DNA of 64,000 bases from a virus, in the IMG/VR virus record IMGVR_UViG_3300044646_001937, positions 62,001 to 126,000 of that record, one strand, 5' to 3'. The notes below the pieces were generated by a model, which searched no databases, was not told the origin of the DNA, and worked only from the letters and a program-made list of their open reading frames with translations. How positions within the stretch are numbered: the first letter of the stretch is position 1; each line of letters begins with the position of its first letter. This document shows, in pieces, positions 33,581-63,232 of this stretch. Position numbers and translations under genes: made by a program.

Positions 33581-33857
33581 TAGAGTTATTGGGTCCGCTC
33601 AGCTTGCTTCTTTTTTTCCGTTCTGTTTTTACCTTATTCAACTCTTTTGGAGTTAAGATATGTTCTAGAGAAGCGTCATCTATAGGCTTATCCAGATCTA
33701 CGGAAACTTCTTTTACGTCGCTTACAGGAGAACCACTCACAGGATCTGCCTGATACAATTGGACTCGTTCTGATTTAGTGTCAGGAATAATACGCTGCTC
33801 TATTATTTCCGCAGGATCTAGTTCTACGGAAATAGCTATATCAGAATCGTCAGTTAC
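33567..33857 (-). CDS. C-terminal extension made by -1 frameshifting
   Basis: Ninety-six codons open in the -1 frame from the slippery site at 33857-33863 to a TAG at 33567. It lacks an ATG until its last residues; the only near start is a TTG at 33758, with no Shine-Dalgarno. The predicted peptide (VTDDSDIAISVELDP..., basic end KTERKKRSK) has the same frame length and codon character as its neighbours and would extend the 283-residue membrane protein to 379 residues. Either programmed frameshifting or a one-base indel in a nine-A run explains it. Confidence 0.55.
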   Translation of the reverse strand, partial: VTDDSDIAISVELDPAEIIEQRIIPDTKSERVQLYQADPVSGSPVSDVKEVSVDLDKPIDDASLEHILTPKELNKVKTERKKRSKLSGPNNSIMNS

Positions 33858-34705
33858 TTTTTTTTTAAGCTGGAAGCATTTTCGTCCTGCATGTTAATCC
33901 CCTCGAATTCGACGGGTTTAAGACTAGCAATATAGGCTGCTTCTTCCTGTTCTTTCTTTTCTCTTCTAGCTTCTAGCAGCTTATTCCAGGCTAACACCAG
34001 AGTGACTGCAAGAGGATCAAATACAAAGATCAGAGCAAAGATAAAATATCTCACTGCCTCGTCTACAGTAGATCCTGTGGCGGCTGCGATGAACTTAAAC
34101 GAGCCTACATCTGTTGTGGTGTTCATACCTATCTTCAATTCAGATATATCCTTCTCAATTTCAATGATTCTTTCTCTGTCTTTAGTCAAAGATTCTTCTT
34201 TCTGTTTGATCTCAAGATTGGCTTCTTCGATAGCTTTGTATGCCTGCTCTCTAGGCGCTTTATAATTGCCAGCATCTTTGACTCGCTGCTCCTGATCTTG
34301 TCTCAGCGTGGTGAGACTTTTGATGCGTTCGCTATATTCAGCTACGCCTGTTTCAATAGCTGTCTTTTCTGTGGTCAATGCTTCAATCTTACTTTCAAAA
34401 GTACCTACAGTAGCAGAATGCACCTGATAGGCTCCTGTAAGGAAGCCGAAGATACCTAGACTGGTAACCCCCATAAGAGTCAGCACAGCAATGCAAAGAT
34501 ATGTCTTCAGCAGGAAGCTGATATGCTTCCAATAGGTATGCAGGAAACTGGCTGCGACCAGCTTACCTATCTCAAGGCTGCTGGCCATAATCCCGATTGC
34601 CAGGCTGCTTCCAGAGAACAGAACAATAAGCCCCTTGATGCTGAAGAAGGCCGCGCACCCGGCCACAAACAAAGCACTAAAAGCGACAAGTATAATGAAT
34701 AGCAT
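33854..34705 (-). CDS. Membrane coiled-coil protein, frameshift donor
   Basis: 283 residues. Three hydrophobic helices in the first ~90 residues (about 2-20, 26-50 and 62-92), a charged coiled coil (about 100-190, Glu/Lys-rich heptads), and a fourth hydrophobic helix at 215-240, with a short charged tail ending in Lys. It resembles coiled-coil membrane proteins found in many large phages; function unknown. Its last codons form A-AAA-AAG followed by the stop, a classic -1 slippery site, and the -1 frame continues to 33567. A -10 box lies 6 bases before its ATG (minus strand). Confidence 0.65.
   Translation of the reverse strand: MLFIILVAFSALFVAGCAAFFSIKGLIVLFSGSSLAIGIMASSLEIGKLVAASFLHTYWKHISFLLKTYLCIAVLTLMGVTSLGIFGFLTGAYQVHSATVGTFESKIEALTTEKTAIETGVAEYSERIKSLTTLRQDQEQRVKDAGNYKAPREQAYKAIEEANLEIKQKEESLTKDRERIIEIEKDISELKIGMNTTTDVGSFKFIAAATGSTVDEAVRYFIFALIFVFDPLAVTLVLAWNKLLEARREKKEQEEAAYIASLKPVEFEGINMQDENASSLKKK
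33857..33863 (-). other. A-AAA-AAG slippery heptamer (-1 frameshift site)
   Basis: Minus-strand A AAA AAG in frame with the membrane protein, inside a run of nine A, immediately before its TAA stop (33856-33854). A 7-base-pair stem (33827-33833 with 33805-33811) lies 23 bases downstream, farther than typical stimulatory structures. The sequence is identical to the E. coli dnaX slip site. Confidence 0.6.
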
Positions 34706-34711
34706 ATTACT

Positions 34712-34717
34712 ATTATA
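34712..34717 (-). promoter_or_regulatory. TATAAT -10 box, leaderless-type spacing (minus)
   Basis: Minus-strand TATAAT ends 6 bases before the membrane-protein ATG at 34705. A second minus-strand TATAAT lies at 34746-34751. Confidence 0.45.
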
Positions 34718-34730
34718 ATACTATTATTTT

Positions 34731-34746
34731 TTAGTGTATACACTAA
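34731..34746. promoter_or_regulatory. 16-base palindrome, candidate operator
   Basis: Perfect 16-base palindrome centred between 34738 and 34739, between divergent genes. It touches the upstream minus-strand -10 box (34746-34751) and lies ~38 bases from the plus-strand promoter at 34781. Confidence 0.5.
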
Positions 34747-34760
34747 TTATACCCCCCCCC
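34746..34760 (-). promoter_or_regulatory. TATAAT -10 box preceded by nine-G tract (minus)
   Basis: Minus-strand TATAAT (34751-34746) with a nine-base G run (34760-34752) immediately upstream, in the place of the -10/-35 spacer. No convincing -35 hexamer. Confidence 0.35.
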
Positions 34761-34780
34761 TGTGTAACCGGCTAGTCTTG

Positions 34781-34789
34781 TGGTATAGT
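34781..34789 (+). promoter_or_regulatory. Extended -10 promoter TGGTATAGT
   Basis: TGnTATAGT, the same class as TGGTATAAT at 28953, 30778 and 36504. It drives the structured leader of the gene at 34903. Confidence 0.5.
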
Positions 34790-34791
34790 AA

Positions 34792-34911
34792 TTTGAATCG
34801 GAGGTTTATAGCTTTTGATTCAAAGTTTGCCGAAAGGCATTTAATTTCATTGCCGTCGCAGCCTCCATGCGATGGTAAACCTAACCTGGAGGCATAGAGT
34901 ATTTGAAAGTT
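34792..34911 (+). promoter_or_regulatory. Structured 5' leader with SD-sequestering pairings
   Basis: Elements in order: an 8-base-pair stem (34792-34799 with 34817-34824) whose 17-base loop contains GGAGG (34800-34804); a UGCC-GAAA-GGCA hairpin (about 34828-34839); a 5-base-pair stem TCGCA/TGCGA (34856-34860 with 34868-34872) whose 7-base loop is GCCTCCA (34861-34867), complementary to TGGAGGC (34887-34893), the likely Shine-Dalgarno. Loop AGGTTTA (34802-34808) also complements TAAACCT (34876-34882). Several alternatives cannot all form at once, as in a switching RNA. No ligand is known; a B12 box was not found. Confidence 0.5.
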
Positions 34912-35337
34912 ATGTTTGGAATTATTTGCAAAATTAACGGGAAAGAAGCTTTGTATAACTGCGCGCCGTTCAGGTCTCACGATGTCGCATCGTGCGAGGC
35001 GGACATCTTAAATGAGATGTACCCAGAGAATAAGTATAGTGTAATTGATTTATGGGCGGCGACGACAAATAAACGTAGCTCGGGGGGGAAAAAATCCCTC
35101 CACGCACAAATCCACAGACTAATGAAGGCTAGCGGAGTAGTTTATTACCTTGCCAAATTTGGTGAGGGCATAGACTACAACTCCCACGGTCAGTGGGGCA
35201 TGATGTTCGCGCACGAGATTCACAAGAAGCTCGTTGACGCGGAACATGTGGTGACTGGTTACACACGAAACCATGCATTCCACAGGCTCGGCAGAGGCTG
35301 CGCCAATCGTGGAGCAGAAATCTACTGGAGTTGGTAG
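34903..35337 (+). CDS. Hypothetical protein behind structured leader
   Basis: 144 residues from a TTG at 34903, 10 bases after a TGGAGG ribosome-binding site; the ATG at 34912 is too far (19 bases) from it. The product has MKVMFGIICKINGKEALYNC, a central Lys/Ser-rich turn and a GYTRNHAFHRLGRGCANRGAE end with several His, Arg and Cys residues. No family recognised. Codon and base use look more GC-rich than the neighbours (many GCG, CGC and CTC codons), suggesting recent acquisition. It is followed by a long terminator hairpin. Confidence 0.6.
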   Translation: MKVMFGIICKINGKEALYNCAPFRSHDVASCEADILNEMYPENKYSVIDLWAATTNKRSSGGKKSLHAQIHRLMKASGVVYYLAKFGEGIDYNSHGQWGMMFAHEIHKKLVDAEHVVTGYTRNHAFHRLGRGCANRGAEIYWSW

Positions 35338-35340
35338 TTC

Positions 35341-35383
35341 ATGCGCACATCAGGGTTCAATTCCTTGATGTGCGCATTTTTTT
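35341..35383 (+). terminator. Strong terminator followed by AGCTATCAG
   Basis: A 12-base-pair stem (35341-35352 with 35366-35377), extended by three more pairs, then seven T and AGCTATCAG. Confidence 0.9.
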
Positions 35384-35392
35384 AGCTATCAG

Positions 35393-35429
35393 ACAAAAAG
35401 AAAGCTGGCCTGGATTTCTCCAGACCAGC
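35393..35429 (-). terminator. Minus-strand terminator of the 35457 operon
   Basis: GCTGG-x-CTGGA pairs with TCCAG-x-CCAGC (35404-35429); on the minus strand a TTTCTTTTT tract follows. Back-to-back with the plus-strand terminator. Confidence 0.8.
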
Positions 35430-35456
35430 CGTCTCGTTCGCAACGACTAACTAATA

Positions 35457-35879
35457 CTAAACAACTGCTTTGATATCTGGATTCATAATCTCCAGCTGTA
35501 GAATAGGAAAGCCCAACTCTGGATTATAGTCAAGCTTGGCTCTCACTACATTCTTAATTTCTACCATTTTACCAAGACTTGTCGATACAAATACTTTGGT
35601 ATCTTCGGTATTTTTTCCAGGAACAAATGTAACATTTCTCTGAGAGGCAGCTACGTTTTCTTCTTCACTCTTGGCTATCCAATCCTCATACAACGCTGCA
35701 GCGCAAGATTGCTTATTTTTAGCTTCAGCAGCTTTATGATCTTCATATGTAAACTTCTGAATATCTTCCAGCCATTTCTTCATTTCTTCGATAGTCATAT
35801 TGAATCCTGCAATCTTAAGTTCAATGTCATCGTTGATCTGCTCTTTCGGGGCTTTGGTAGTTTTGATTGTTTTGCTCAT
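35457..35879 (-). CDS. Hypothetical protein downstream of adenosyltransferase
   Basis: 140 residues from the ATG at 35879, 7 bases after the adenosyltransferase stop; an in-frame start further upstream would overlap that gene. Order: short Lys-rich disordered N-terminus, acidic helix (NDDIELKIAGFNMTIEEMKKWLEDIQ), long charged helix with a single Cys, and a beta C-terminus (DTKVFVSTSLGKMVEIKNVVRAKLDY...LQLEIMN). No family recognised. Co-transcribed with the adenosyltransferase; a shared role is possible but not shown. Confidence 0.55.
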   Translation of the reverse strand: MSKTIKTTKAPKEQINDDIELKIAGFNMTIEEMKKWLEDIQKFTYEDHKAAEAKNKQSCAAALYEDWIAKSEEENVAASQRNVTFVPGKNTEDTKVFVSTSLGKMVEIKNVVRAKLDYNPELGFPILQLEIMNPDIKAVV

Positions 35880-35886
35880 ATGTTTG

Positions 35887-36459
35887 TTAGGGTTGTTTTT
35901 GATAAGTGCCAGTTTCACAATAGTCGTAAAACCTTGCAAGCAAGTGCAAAAAGTCACTCAGTCTGTTAATATATTTAATCAGCAAATCTCTGCAAGCATA
36001 TTCTTGATTAGCTTTTTCTGTATCTACTAGAAACACTAAAGCTCGTTCAGCTCTTCTGCAAATTTTAGAACTTAGATCTGCTCTAGCTCCTTTTTCTGAG
36101 TTGCCATATAACACCCAGCCTTGCTGATCCAGTTCTTTCATATCCTGCAGAACATCTACTTTCTGGTCAAGTAAATCCATGTCTGCTTCTTTTACATAGT
36201 CATACTTCTCAACATATTCTTTTCTTTTTTCAGGTTCAGAAACAAGCTCACCCATGAAAAGGGTCAGTGAGTGCTGTATAGTTTCCAGATATGCTCTGTA
36301 GCTGTCTTGTTTATCTAGTGAAGCTTTTAGAAAACCTATGGCTGCATTCAACTCGTCCACATCTCCAACCAGTTGAATTCTATAATCTTGTTTACTTACT
36401 CGTTTACCAAACAACAAGCCAGTTGTTCCTTTGTCTCCTGATTTTGTAGCAATACGCAT
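35887..36459 (-). CDS. PduO-type cob(I)alamin adenosyltransferase
   Basis: 190 residues, full length for the PduO-type (ATP:cob(I)alamin adenosyltransferase) family, which transfers the adenosyl group of ATP to reduced cobalamin. Conserved elements: TKSGDKGTTG (5-14, ATP phosphate contacts), VDELN (34-38), CRRAER (134-139, Arg needed for ATP and interface), and YINRLSDFLHLLAR (163-176). No truncation. Its neighbour on the same strand is an unknown gene at 35457; the adenosylcobalamin-dependent ribonucleotide reductase (37177-39027) is the obvious consumer of the product. Regulatory sequence: the minus-strand side of the 36460-36554 intergenic region. Confidence 0.9.
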   Translation of the reverse strand: MRIATKSGDKGTTGLLFGKRVSKQDYRIQLVGDVDELNAAIGFLKASLDKQDSYRAYLETIQHSLTLFMGELVSEPEKRKEYVEKYDYVKEADMDLLDQKVDVLQDMKELDQQGWVLYGNSEKGARADLSSKICRRAERALVFLVDTEKANQEYACRDLLIKYINRLSDFLHLLARFYDYCETGTYQKQP

Positions 36460-61382: not shown

Positions 61383-63232
61383 TGGCTGTAACTACCACAG
61401 GACAGGTATTGTTGAAGTTCTTCCTACCTCAACAATTTCATAATCTAGTTCAGGATGTCATTTTAGATAAAAAGGGCATCTCTAAGCTTTTTGCAGAATT
61501 AGCGGAAAAGGCTCCTGAAGAATATAGTAAAATTGTATCAGATCTTACTAGATTAGGTTTCGAGATTGCTACAAGACAAGGTACGTCTATTACTTTAAAA
61601 GATCTAATCTCTCCCATCAATAAAGATAAAGAGTGGGATGAGTTTGAAAAATTTAAAGAAGAAACAGAAAAGTCAAACGACTCAAAAAGCATTAAAGACA
61701 ATAAGATCTTTAATAAATACAACGACATGATGTCTAGTATTGAAAAAGATCTATTGAATAAGGGTCTTGCTGATAATAAGTCATTGGCTAAGATTATCAT
61801 GGCAGGATCCCGAGGTTCTCCAGCACAATACAGAGGAACAATTGCAACACAGGGAATCGTAGTGGATGCAGAGGGTAAGCCTAAAATGGATCTACCTATT
61901 AAAAGTTCTTATGCTGAAGGCTTATCTTTACCAGAATATTTAGCTACTTCGTTTGGTACTAGGTCTGGGGAAGTGTTAAAAAAGATTAGTGTGGCGCAGG
62001 GCGGGTATGGCTCCAAGCAATTTGCAAGAGCGCTAATGCCTCTACAGGTAGTAGAGGCAGACTGCGAAACAATGAACGGTATCAGTGTTTCTGTAGACGA
62101 CAAAGAATCAGCAGGGTCCTATCTAGCCAAAGGAGTGTTAGACTATAATAGGAATAACGAAGTGACATTAAAAATGCTCAACGATCTTAGAAATAAGAAA
62201 GTTGAGAAGATTGTTATTCGTACACCCATGACATGTCAGTCTAACAAAAAACATCACTCAGGTGGTTTGTGTCAGATGTGTGTAGGTAAAAGAGAAAAGG
62301 GAATGGCAGCAATGGACAGCTATGTAGGTCTGGTGGCAGGTACGGCTGTAGCGGAACCATTAACAGAAAGCGCGATGAAGGCCAGACATTCAGGAGGCGC
62401 AGCCACGTCACTAGGAGGACAATCAGGCTTTAAGCTAATCAATCAGCTGGCCAACGTACCTAAGACATTTGTAGGCAGAGCCCCCCTAGCTCAAGAGGAC
62501 GGATTTGTTACTAAAGTAGAGAAAGCTGACGCTGGAGGTTACTTTATAACCGTGAATAATGAAGAGCATTATATTGGGATTGATCAGGAACCTAAAGTAC
62601 AGCAAGGAGACAGAGTAGAACAGGGACAGGTATTAAGTACAGGTCTTGTAGATCCTAGAGAGGTTGTAAAATATAGAGGAATTGGAGACGGGCGTAAGTA
62701 TTATATGGAGGCAATGAAGAAAGCATTCGACGACAGCAGTCTTCCTGTAAATCGCAGAAATTTTGAGCTGATTGCGAAAGCTGCTGTAGATCATGTCAAA
62801 ATCACAGACCCCGAAGGTATAGGTAATTATCTTCCAGATCAGGTGGTGTCATACTCAGCTATTGAGAAAGACTATAACCCCAGAAGTAACTCTAAGATGC
62901 TTAGGATAGATATGGCCTATGGTAAATATATGGAGAAACCTGAGCTTCACTACACCATTGGCACCAGAGTTACCTCCGCCGTAATCAGAGATCTCAAAGA
63001 ACATGAGATTGAATCTGTACTGGTTAACGATCAACCCCCCAACTTTGAACCAGTAATGGTACGTCTGGTGGACGTACCAGAGCATCATGAAGACTGGATG
63101 CATGTATTAAACAGCACCAACCTCGCAAAAAGGTTTGTAAATATGGTCAACAGAGGATCTACATCAGACACAAAAGGCCCTAGCCCTATACCTGGGTTAG
63201 CTATGGGTGTTGGGTTTGGACAGAAAGATTAA
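61382..63232 (+). CDS. RNA polymerase beta' C-terminal half (split)
   Basis: 616 residues. Bridge-helix region GSRGSPAQYRG, then YLATSFGTRSGEVLKKISVAQGGYGSKQFAR, the four-Cys zinc site (EADC, MTC, GLC, QMC), and the trigger-loop block GTAVAEPLTESAMKARHSGG with M332 and H336 at the positions of E. coli M932 and H936 (R933 is Lys). The C-terminal clamp-like NRRNFELIAKAAVDHVKITDPEGIGNYLPD matches the end of beta'. With the beta-C/beta'-N fusion it completes beta'. Starts by TAATG coupling with the previous gene. Confidence 0.9.
   Translation: MAVTTTGQVLLKFFLPQQFHNLVQDVILDKKGISKLFAELAEKAPEEYSKIVSDLTRLGFEIATRQGTSITLKDLISPINKDKEWDEFEKFKEETEKSNDSKSIKDNKIFNKYNDMMSSIEKDLLNKGLADNKSLAKIIMAGSRGSPAQYRGTIATQGIVVDAEGKPKMDLPIKSSYAEGLSLPEYLATSFGTRSGEVLKKISVAQGGYGSKQFARALMPLQVVEADCETMNGISVSVDDKESAGSYLAKGVLDYNRNNEVTLKMLNDLRNKKVEKIVIRTPMTCQSNKKHHSGGLCQMCVGKREKGMAAMDSYVGLVAGTAVAEPLTESAMKARHSGGAATSLGGQSGFKLINQLANVPKTFVGRAPLAQEDGFVTKVEKADAGGYFITVNNEEHYIGIDQEPKVQQGDRVEQGQVLSTGLVDPREVVKYRGIGDGRKYYMEAMKKAFDDSSLPVNRRNFELIAKAAVDHVKITDPEGIGNYLPDQVVSYSAIEKDYNPRSNSKMLRIDMAYGKYMEKPELHYTIGTRVTSAVIRDLKEHEIESVLVNDQPPNFEPVMVRLVDVPEHHEDWMHVLNSTNLAKRFVNMVNRGSTSDTKGPSPIPGLAMGVGFGQKD

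Follow-up and report, generated by a model that had tools for sequence, protein, structure and literature searches.

In the preQ1 and SAM-II translational riboswitches, an H-type pseudoknot takes the Shine-Dalgarno sequence (SD) as its 3' strand. Comparable pseudoknot leaders occur in T4-type phages, where the pseudoknot of T4 gene 32, lying 67 nt upstream, nucleates gp32 binding, and T4 genes e and I-TevI are kept silent early and turned on late, their early RNA having a masked ribosome-binding site (PMC3014915). In phages, leaders masking a ribosome-binding site have so far been known gene by gene. Here we describe one leader that stands, nearly unchanged, before unrelated accessory genes and also within an operon, which suggests that regulation may be tied to a genomic slot and not to a gene.

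The locus and its transcription unit

The stretch of DNA analysed (the window, 64 kb) runs from base 62001 to base 126000 of a phage record 204 kb long, whose genes include those for PhoH, a B12-type ribonucleotide reductase, dCMP deaminase, cobalamin adenosyltransferase and, with only distant relatives (~30% identity) among sequenced phages, an RNA polymerase beta-like protein. The leader and the gene behind it, ORF A, make up a + strand single-gene transcription unit, flanked by two - strand genes and bounded by a promoter-like site at its 5' end and an intrinsic terminator at its 3' end:

34780-34795, + strand: promoter-like GTGGTATAGTAATTTG of the extended -10 type, a degenerate version of the phage's TGGTATANTATATTG promoter
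34792-34824, + strand: 5'-terminal hairpin P1, TTTGAATCGGAGGTT...AGCTTTTGATTCAAA
34828-34839, + strand: GNRA hairpin UGCC-GAAA-GGCA, (T)GCCGAAAGGC(A), a box common to the type-2 leaders of sister phages (see below)
34850-34878, + strand: stem S1, TTGCCGTCGCA / TGCGATGGTAA, 11 pairs including G-U, presenting the anti-SD loop
34861-34867, + strand: anti-SD loop GCCTCCA on S1, invariant among the type-1 leaders found
34887-34893, + strand: TGGAGGC, SD-like and complementary to the loop, likewise invariant among the type-1 leaders found
34894-34911, + strand: spacer ATAGAGTATTTGAAAGTT from GGAGGC to ATG, including TTG 34903
34912-35337, + strand: ORF A, 141 aa, ATG start, without a known domain
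35341-35384, + strand: intrinsic terminator of the single-gene transcript, its loop T-arm-like

Window positions 33854-36459 and the sister loci form a variable accessory slot between the genes for a 283-aa membrane protein and cobalamin adenosyltransferase, and close relatives differ in what this slot contains (ORFs A, B, C, D and X). Terminators with T-arm-like loops occur at window 35341-35377 and at G000:C1:54012-54046 (GGGTTCAATTCC, GGGCTCAATCCCC).

The TGGTATANTATATTG promoter is found genome-wide in six exact copies and four that depart from it at one or two positions, every one of them on the + strand (shared sites lie at G000:C1 positions 38876, 48649, 51106, 53392, 92778, which is window 30778, 191269 and 191780), and these copies precede genes that include, judged by sequence, one tRNA gene and one tmRNA-like gene. 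Directly after most of them comes a 5'-terminal hairpin of variable strength, several of these being no better than shuffles, and P1 is of the ordinary hairpin type for promoter copies of this phage; its pairing is retained in the sister locus L056 despite changes on both sides. No second copy of the leader module was seen in the other TGGTATANTATATTG promoter units inspected. In contig L001 (5850-6560), ~70 bp comprising the promoter and a 5' hairpin arm are directly repeated on either side of an ORF A cassette, and the P1 arms are mismatched in the upstream copy, suggesting a recent junction within the P1 loop. At L054:3050-3425 (- strand) the same promoter and slot are followed by a predicted transcript of ~350 nt, apparently non-coding, with a terminator at its end.

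An early-type promoter upstream of the leader invites comparison with T4 genes e and I-TevI, where a late promoter inside the leader of a masked early RNA gives a short, translatable mRNA. We consider such an arrangement improbable here, since the upstream regions yielded no clear late-promoter motif and a scan for sigma-70-type promoters gave no site within the leader.

The most likely translation start, judging from the aligned relatives, is ATG 34912, because the ORF A homologue of L056 (56% identity) and the unrelated ORF B of sister phages both start at this conserved ATG or its equivalent, and because L005 lacks the upstream TTG. That codon, TTG 34903, was considered as a start and is weakened, being TTT in L005, while the L056 homologue begins at the equivalent of ATG 34912. 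The sequence-only reading had taken TGGAGGC for the Shine-Dalgarno of the gene, and the likely start sits poorly with this: ATG 34912 lies 19 nt past GGAGG, a long spacing for Shine-Dalgarno use and the chief weakness of any reading in which a ribosome-binding site is masked. GGAGG may instead serve as a stand-by site or as a purely structural partner.

Full-length homologues of ORF A were found in L001 and L056 only, and searches of bacterial genome contigs, phages and plasmids gave no relative; its predicted structure is too poor (mean pLDDT 47). It is a real gene, given that the three homologues align throughout and that, of the 43 changes separating the window from L001, 24 are at third codon positions. 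This bears on the idea that the ORF is secondary and that the functional product is a structured early RNA working in trans; in favour of it, the L054 transcript has no ORF longer than ~45 aa. With the ORF A and ORF B families both conserved proteins, and ORF A changing mostly at third positions, we find that idea highly unlikely.

Fold of the leader and its variants

Complementarity between the GCCTCCA loop and TGGAGGC, from which a pseudoknot hiding the ribosome-binding site had been proposed, is present and would rarely arise by chance; the 5-bp hairpin described for it is the TCGCA/TGCGA core within S1. Among 5000 shuffled leaders only 4 gave an H-type arrangement whose second stem has 7 bp (a hairpin with a 7-nt loop set against a downstream GGAGG-containing 7-mer), and elsewhere in the window this geometry is found at two other + strand sites and two on the - strand. 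The fold of the 128 nt beats 200/200 dinucleotide shuffles (z -3.6), with estimated energies of -15.6 kcal/mol for S1, -12.0 for the loop-SD duplex and -12.1 for a competing simple SD hairpin. It was also correctly seen that an SD is missing from most genes of the window and that this one stands out: its anti-SD match (-9.3 kcal/mol) is among the strongest in the window. Against masking, its initiation region comes only 11th of 51 genes when ranked by the -30 to +20 fold. In addition, CATAG in the spacer is able to pair with UUAUG at the start codon.

Across the four type-1 variants compared (the window, L001, L004 and L005), S1 shows one consistent change and two pairs each broken in one variant. 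Partition functions, which model nested pairing, give the nested GCCTCCA:TGGAGGC helix a probability of 0.97-0.98 in L001 and L004 and of 0.25 in L005, but only 0.07 in the window with its strong S1; nonetheless the bases of GGAGG are mostly paired in 4/4 variants. The robust outcome of this modelling is that the SD-like segment is predicted always to be holdable by its complement, in a form, pseudoknot or hairpin, that would differ between variants. The proposal of a pseudoknot masking the SD thus stands as regards the predicted pairing of GGAGG in all four, but two of them are predicted to form a plain hairpin.

Other elements of the sequence-only reading fared unevenly. The GNRA hairpin is present, whereas an upstream GGAGG (34800-34804) is predicted to lie in an extended stem, in G-U pairs with CTTTT, rather than in an open loop, and is not supported as an alternative partner for the anti-SD loop, being absent in L001, L004 and L005. 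AGGTTTA and TAAACCT both occur (34802-34808 and 34876-34882), but their pairing is missing from the same three variants. The suggested covariation check returned no pair (0) changed on both sides in the proposed type-1 structure, the sequences being few and similar.

A ligand-sensing translational riboswitch, with an H-type pseudoknot containing the SD, had likewise been suggested, and the topology does resemble the preQ1 and SAM-II classes, with loops that are invariant among the leaders found. Yet when Rfam covariance models were run on the window no match reached the gathering score, and matches at E<=10 amounted to noise, for instance miRNA models that scored well under their cut-offs; the downstream genes are unrelated ORFs without assigned function, and covariation defines no aptamer. 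A known riboswitch is therefore not what the Rfam search points to, and we hold a ligand-sensing one to be very unlikely.

Modularity and a second leader type

A core of ~89 nt, comprising the GCCGAAAGGC hairpin, the GCCTCCA loop, TGGAGGC, the spacer and the ATG, is found in sister phages and in one unrelated contig. The latter, L001, was the one relative returned by a protein-based search with the ORF, and has a near-identical leader; the other 6 kb of the contig has no similarity to the window. L004, L005 and L006, found by a pattern for the anti-SD/SD pair, are close relatives of the window's phage with the same locus, but there the gene is ORF B (200 aa). In L005/L006 the 5' hairpin is separated from the module by ORF X, a third small gene, which makes the module intercistronic there. 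The anti-SD and SD segments are identical in the window, L001, L004 and L005/L006, an identity among few, closely related leaders for which recent transfer may be a cause. A model of the 89-nt core, run over the phage genome and 79 related loci, gave nothing convincing beyond L001, L004, L005 and L006; the window's phage genome holds no second copy of the module, phage and plasmid records gave only 20-40-nt chance matches, and the exact 24-nt core does not occur in the bacterial genome contigs. Loose-pattern matches (L007-L009, L011-L016, L132) were inspected and rejected as chance.

As far as sequence comparison can tell, then, the leader is modular. Autoregulation, in which the encoded protein would bind its own leader as gp32 does in T4, was part of the sequence-only reading and has the pseudoknot leaders of T4-type phages as precedent (PMC3014915), but because a leader of identical type precedes both ORF A and the unrelated ORF B we give it hardly any credence.

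L056 and L052/L053 have the same promoter and slot with a different leader, a 108-nt four-way junction after a shared UGCCGAAAGGCA box, which we call type 2:

L056:3761-3868, - strand: type-2 leader
L052:3224-3327, - strand: type-2 leader
L064:1210-1317, - strand: type-2 leader

The genes behind these leaders differ (67-aa ORFs, a MYG1-family gene). The third and divergent copy, in the more distant phage L064, was reached with a two-sequence model (41 bits, E 2e-8) and lies ~2.7 kb from the slot, upstream of the MYG1-family gene. With all three sequences aligned by fitting to the model, pairing holds in 99% of cells, and 19/35 pairs are changed on both sides, against a shuffle mean of 7 and at most 3 with slid partners; in the unfitted alignment of two sequences 8/35 pairs covary and 100% are paired. 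The type-2 RNA has no match in Rfam, and none was found in the window's own phage. Its covariation shows that structural selection can act on leaders at this promoter, which makes the structural reading of type 1 more credible. Both types follow the same early promoter and a 5' hairpin, and each starts with the GCCGAAAGG box. It is conceivable, if somewhat short of an even chance, that this phage clade uses types 1 and 2 as interchangeable structured leaders, plug-in control modules for a fast-exchanged accessory slot; type 2 would then represent a class of RNA not described before.

The strongest rival to translational control is that the conserved stretch is mainly a homology block for accessory-gene exchange, in which folding is incidental and translation begins from AU-rich sequence just ahead of ATG 34912. 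Sequence identity between relatives does end at the ATG, with the downstream ORF swapped between sister phages, the 19-nt spacing speaks against SD use, and other SD-less genes of this phage start in AU-rich contexts. What weighs against it is that the SD-containing half is more conserved than either the 5' half or ORF B: between L004 and L005, 1/55 nt differ from the loop side of S1 to just before the ATG, compared with 7/31 in the module's 5' part (Fisher p 0.003), and ORF B shows 71% nucleotide identity. The loop-SD complementarity is moreover rare by chance, and the leaders that follow this promoter in sister phages are structured RNAs with covariation. On balance we regard the homology block as unlikely, if still worth taking seriously.

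A proposed portable control leader compared with known systems

We think there is about an even chance that this is a gene-independent, portable translation-control leader whose GGAGG is masked by GCCTCCA. We infer that transcription begins near 34795, at the early-type promoter, giving an RNA with a 5' hairpin. The GCCTCCA loop would then hold GGAGG, either in an H-type pseudoknot on S1 or in a simple hairpin competing with S1, and initiation at the downstream ORF would be low or conditional until the structure is opened, possibly by a phage or host RNA-binding factor, by a leader stand-by ribosome or by changed conditions. The module is not tied to one gene: it stands before ORF A or ORF B, at the 5' end of a transcript or between cistrons. 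Its sequence, conservation and modularity are shown here, whereas masking of initiation and the release from it are inferred. The leader is a compact module, open to testing, and the type-2 leader of the sister phages is a covariation-supported candidate RNA class.

With the preQ1 and SAM-II riboswitches the leader would share, as a modelled candidate, the H-type pseudoknot with the SD as its 3' strand; unlike them it has no Rfam similarity or pathway link, and a ligand role is hypothetical. Like the T4 gene 32 leader it belongs to a phage mRNA and has a pseudoknot (here a candidate) as well as AU-rich sequence ahead of the start codon, but here it is the SD-like segment that would pair in the pseudoknot, and the genes downstream can be exchanged. 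The hairpins of T4 e, I-TevI and phage Aeh1 mobE are similar in that, when transcription comes from an early promoter upstream, the ribosome-binding site of an accessory gene is predicted to be masked; here, in contrast, no internal late promoter was found, the predicted pairing is between loop and SD, possibly as a pseudoknot, and unrelated genes share the module.
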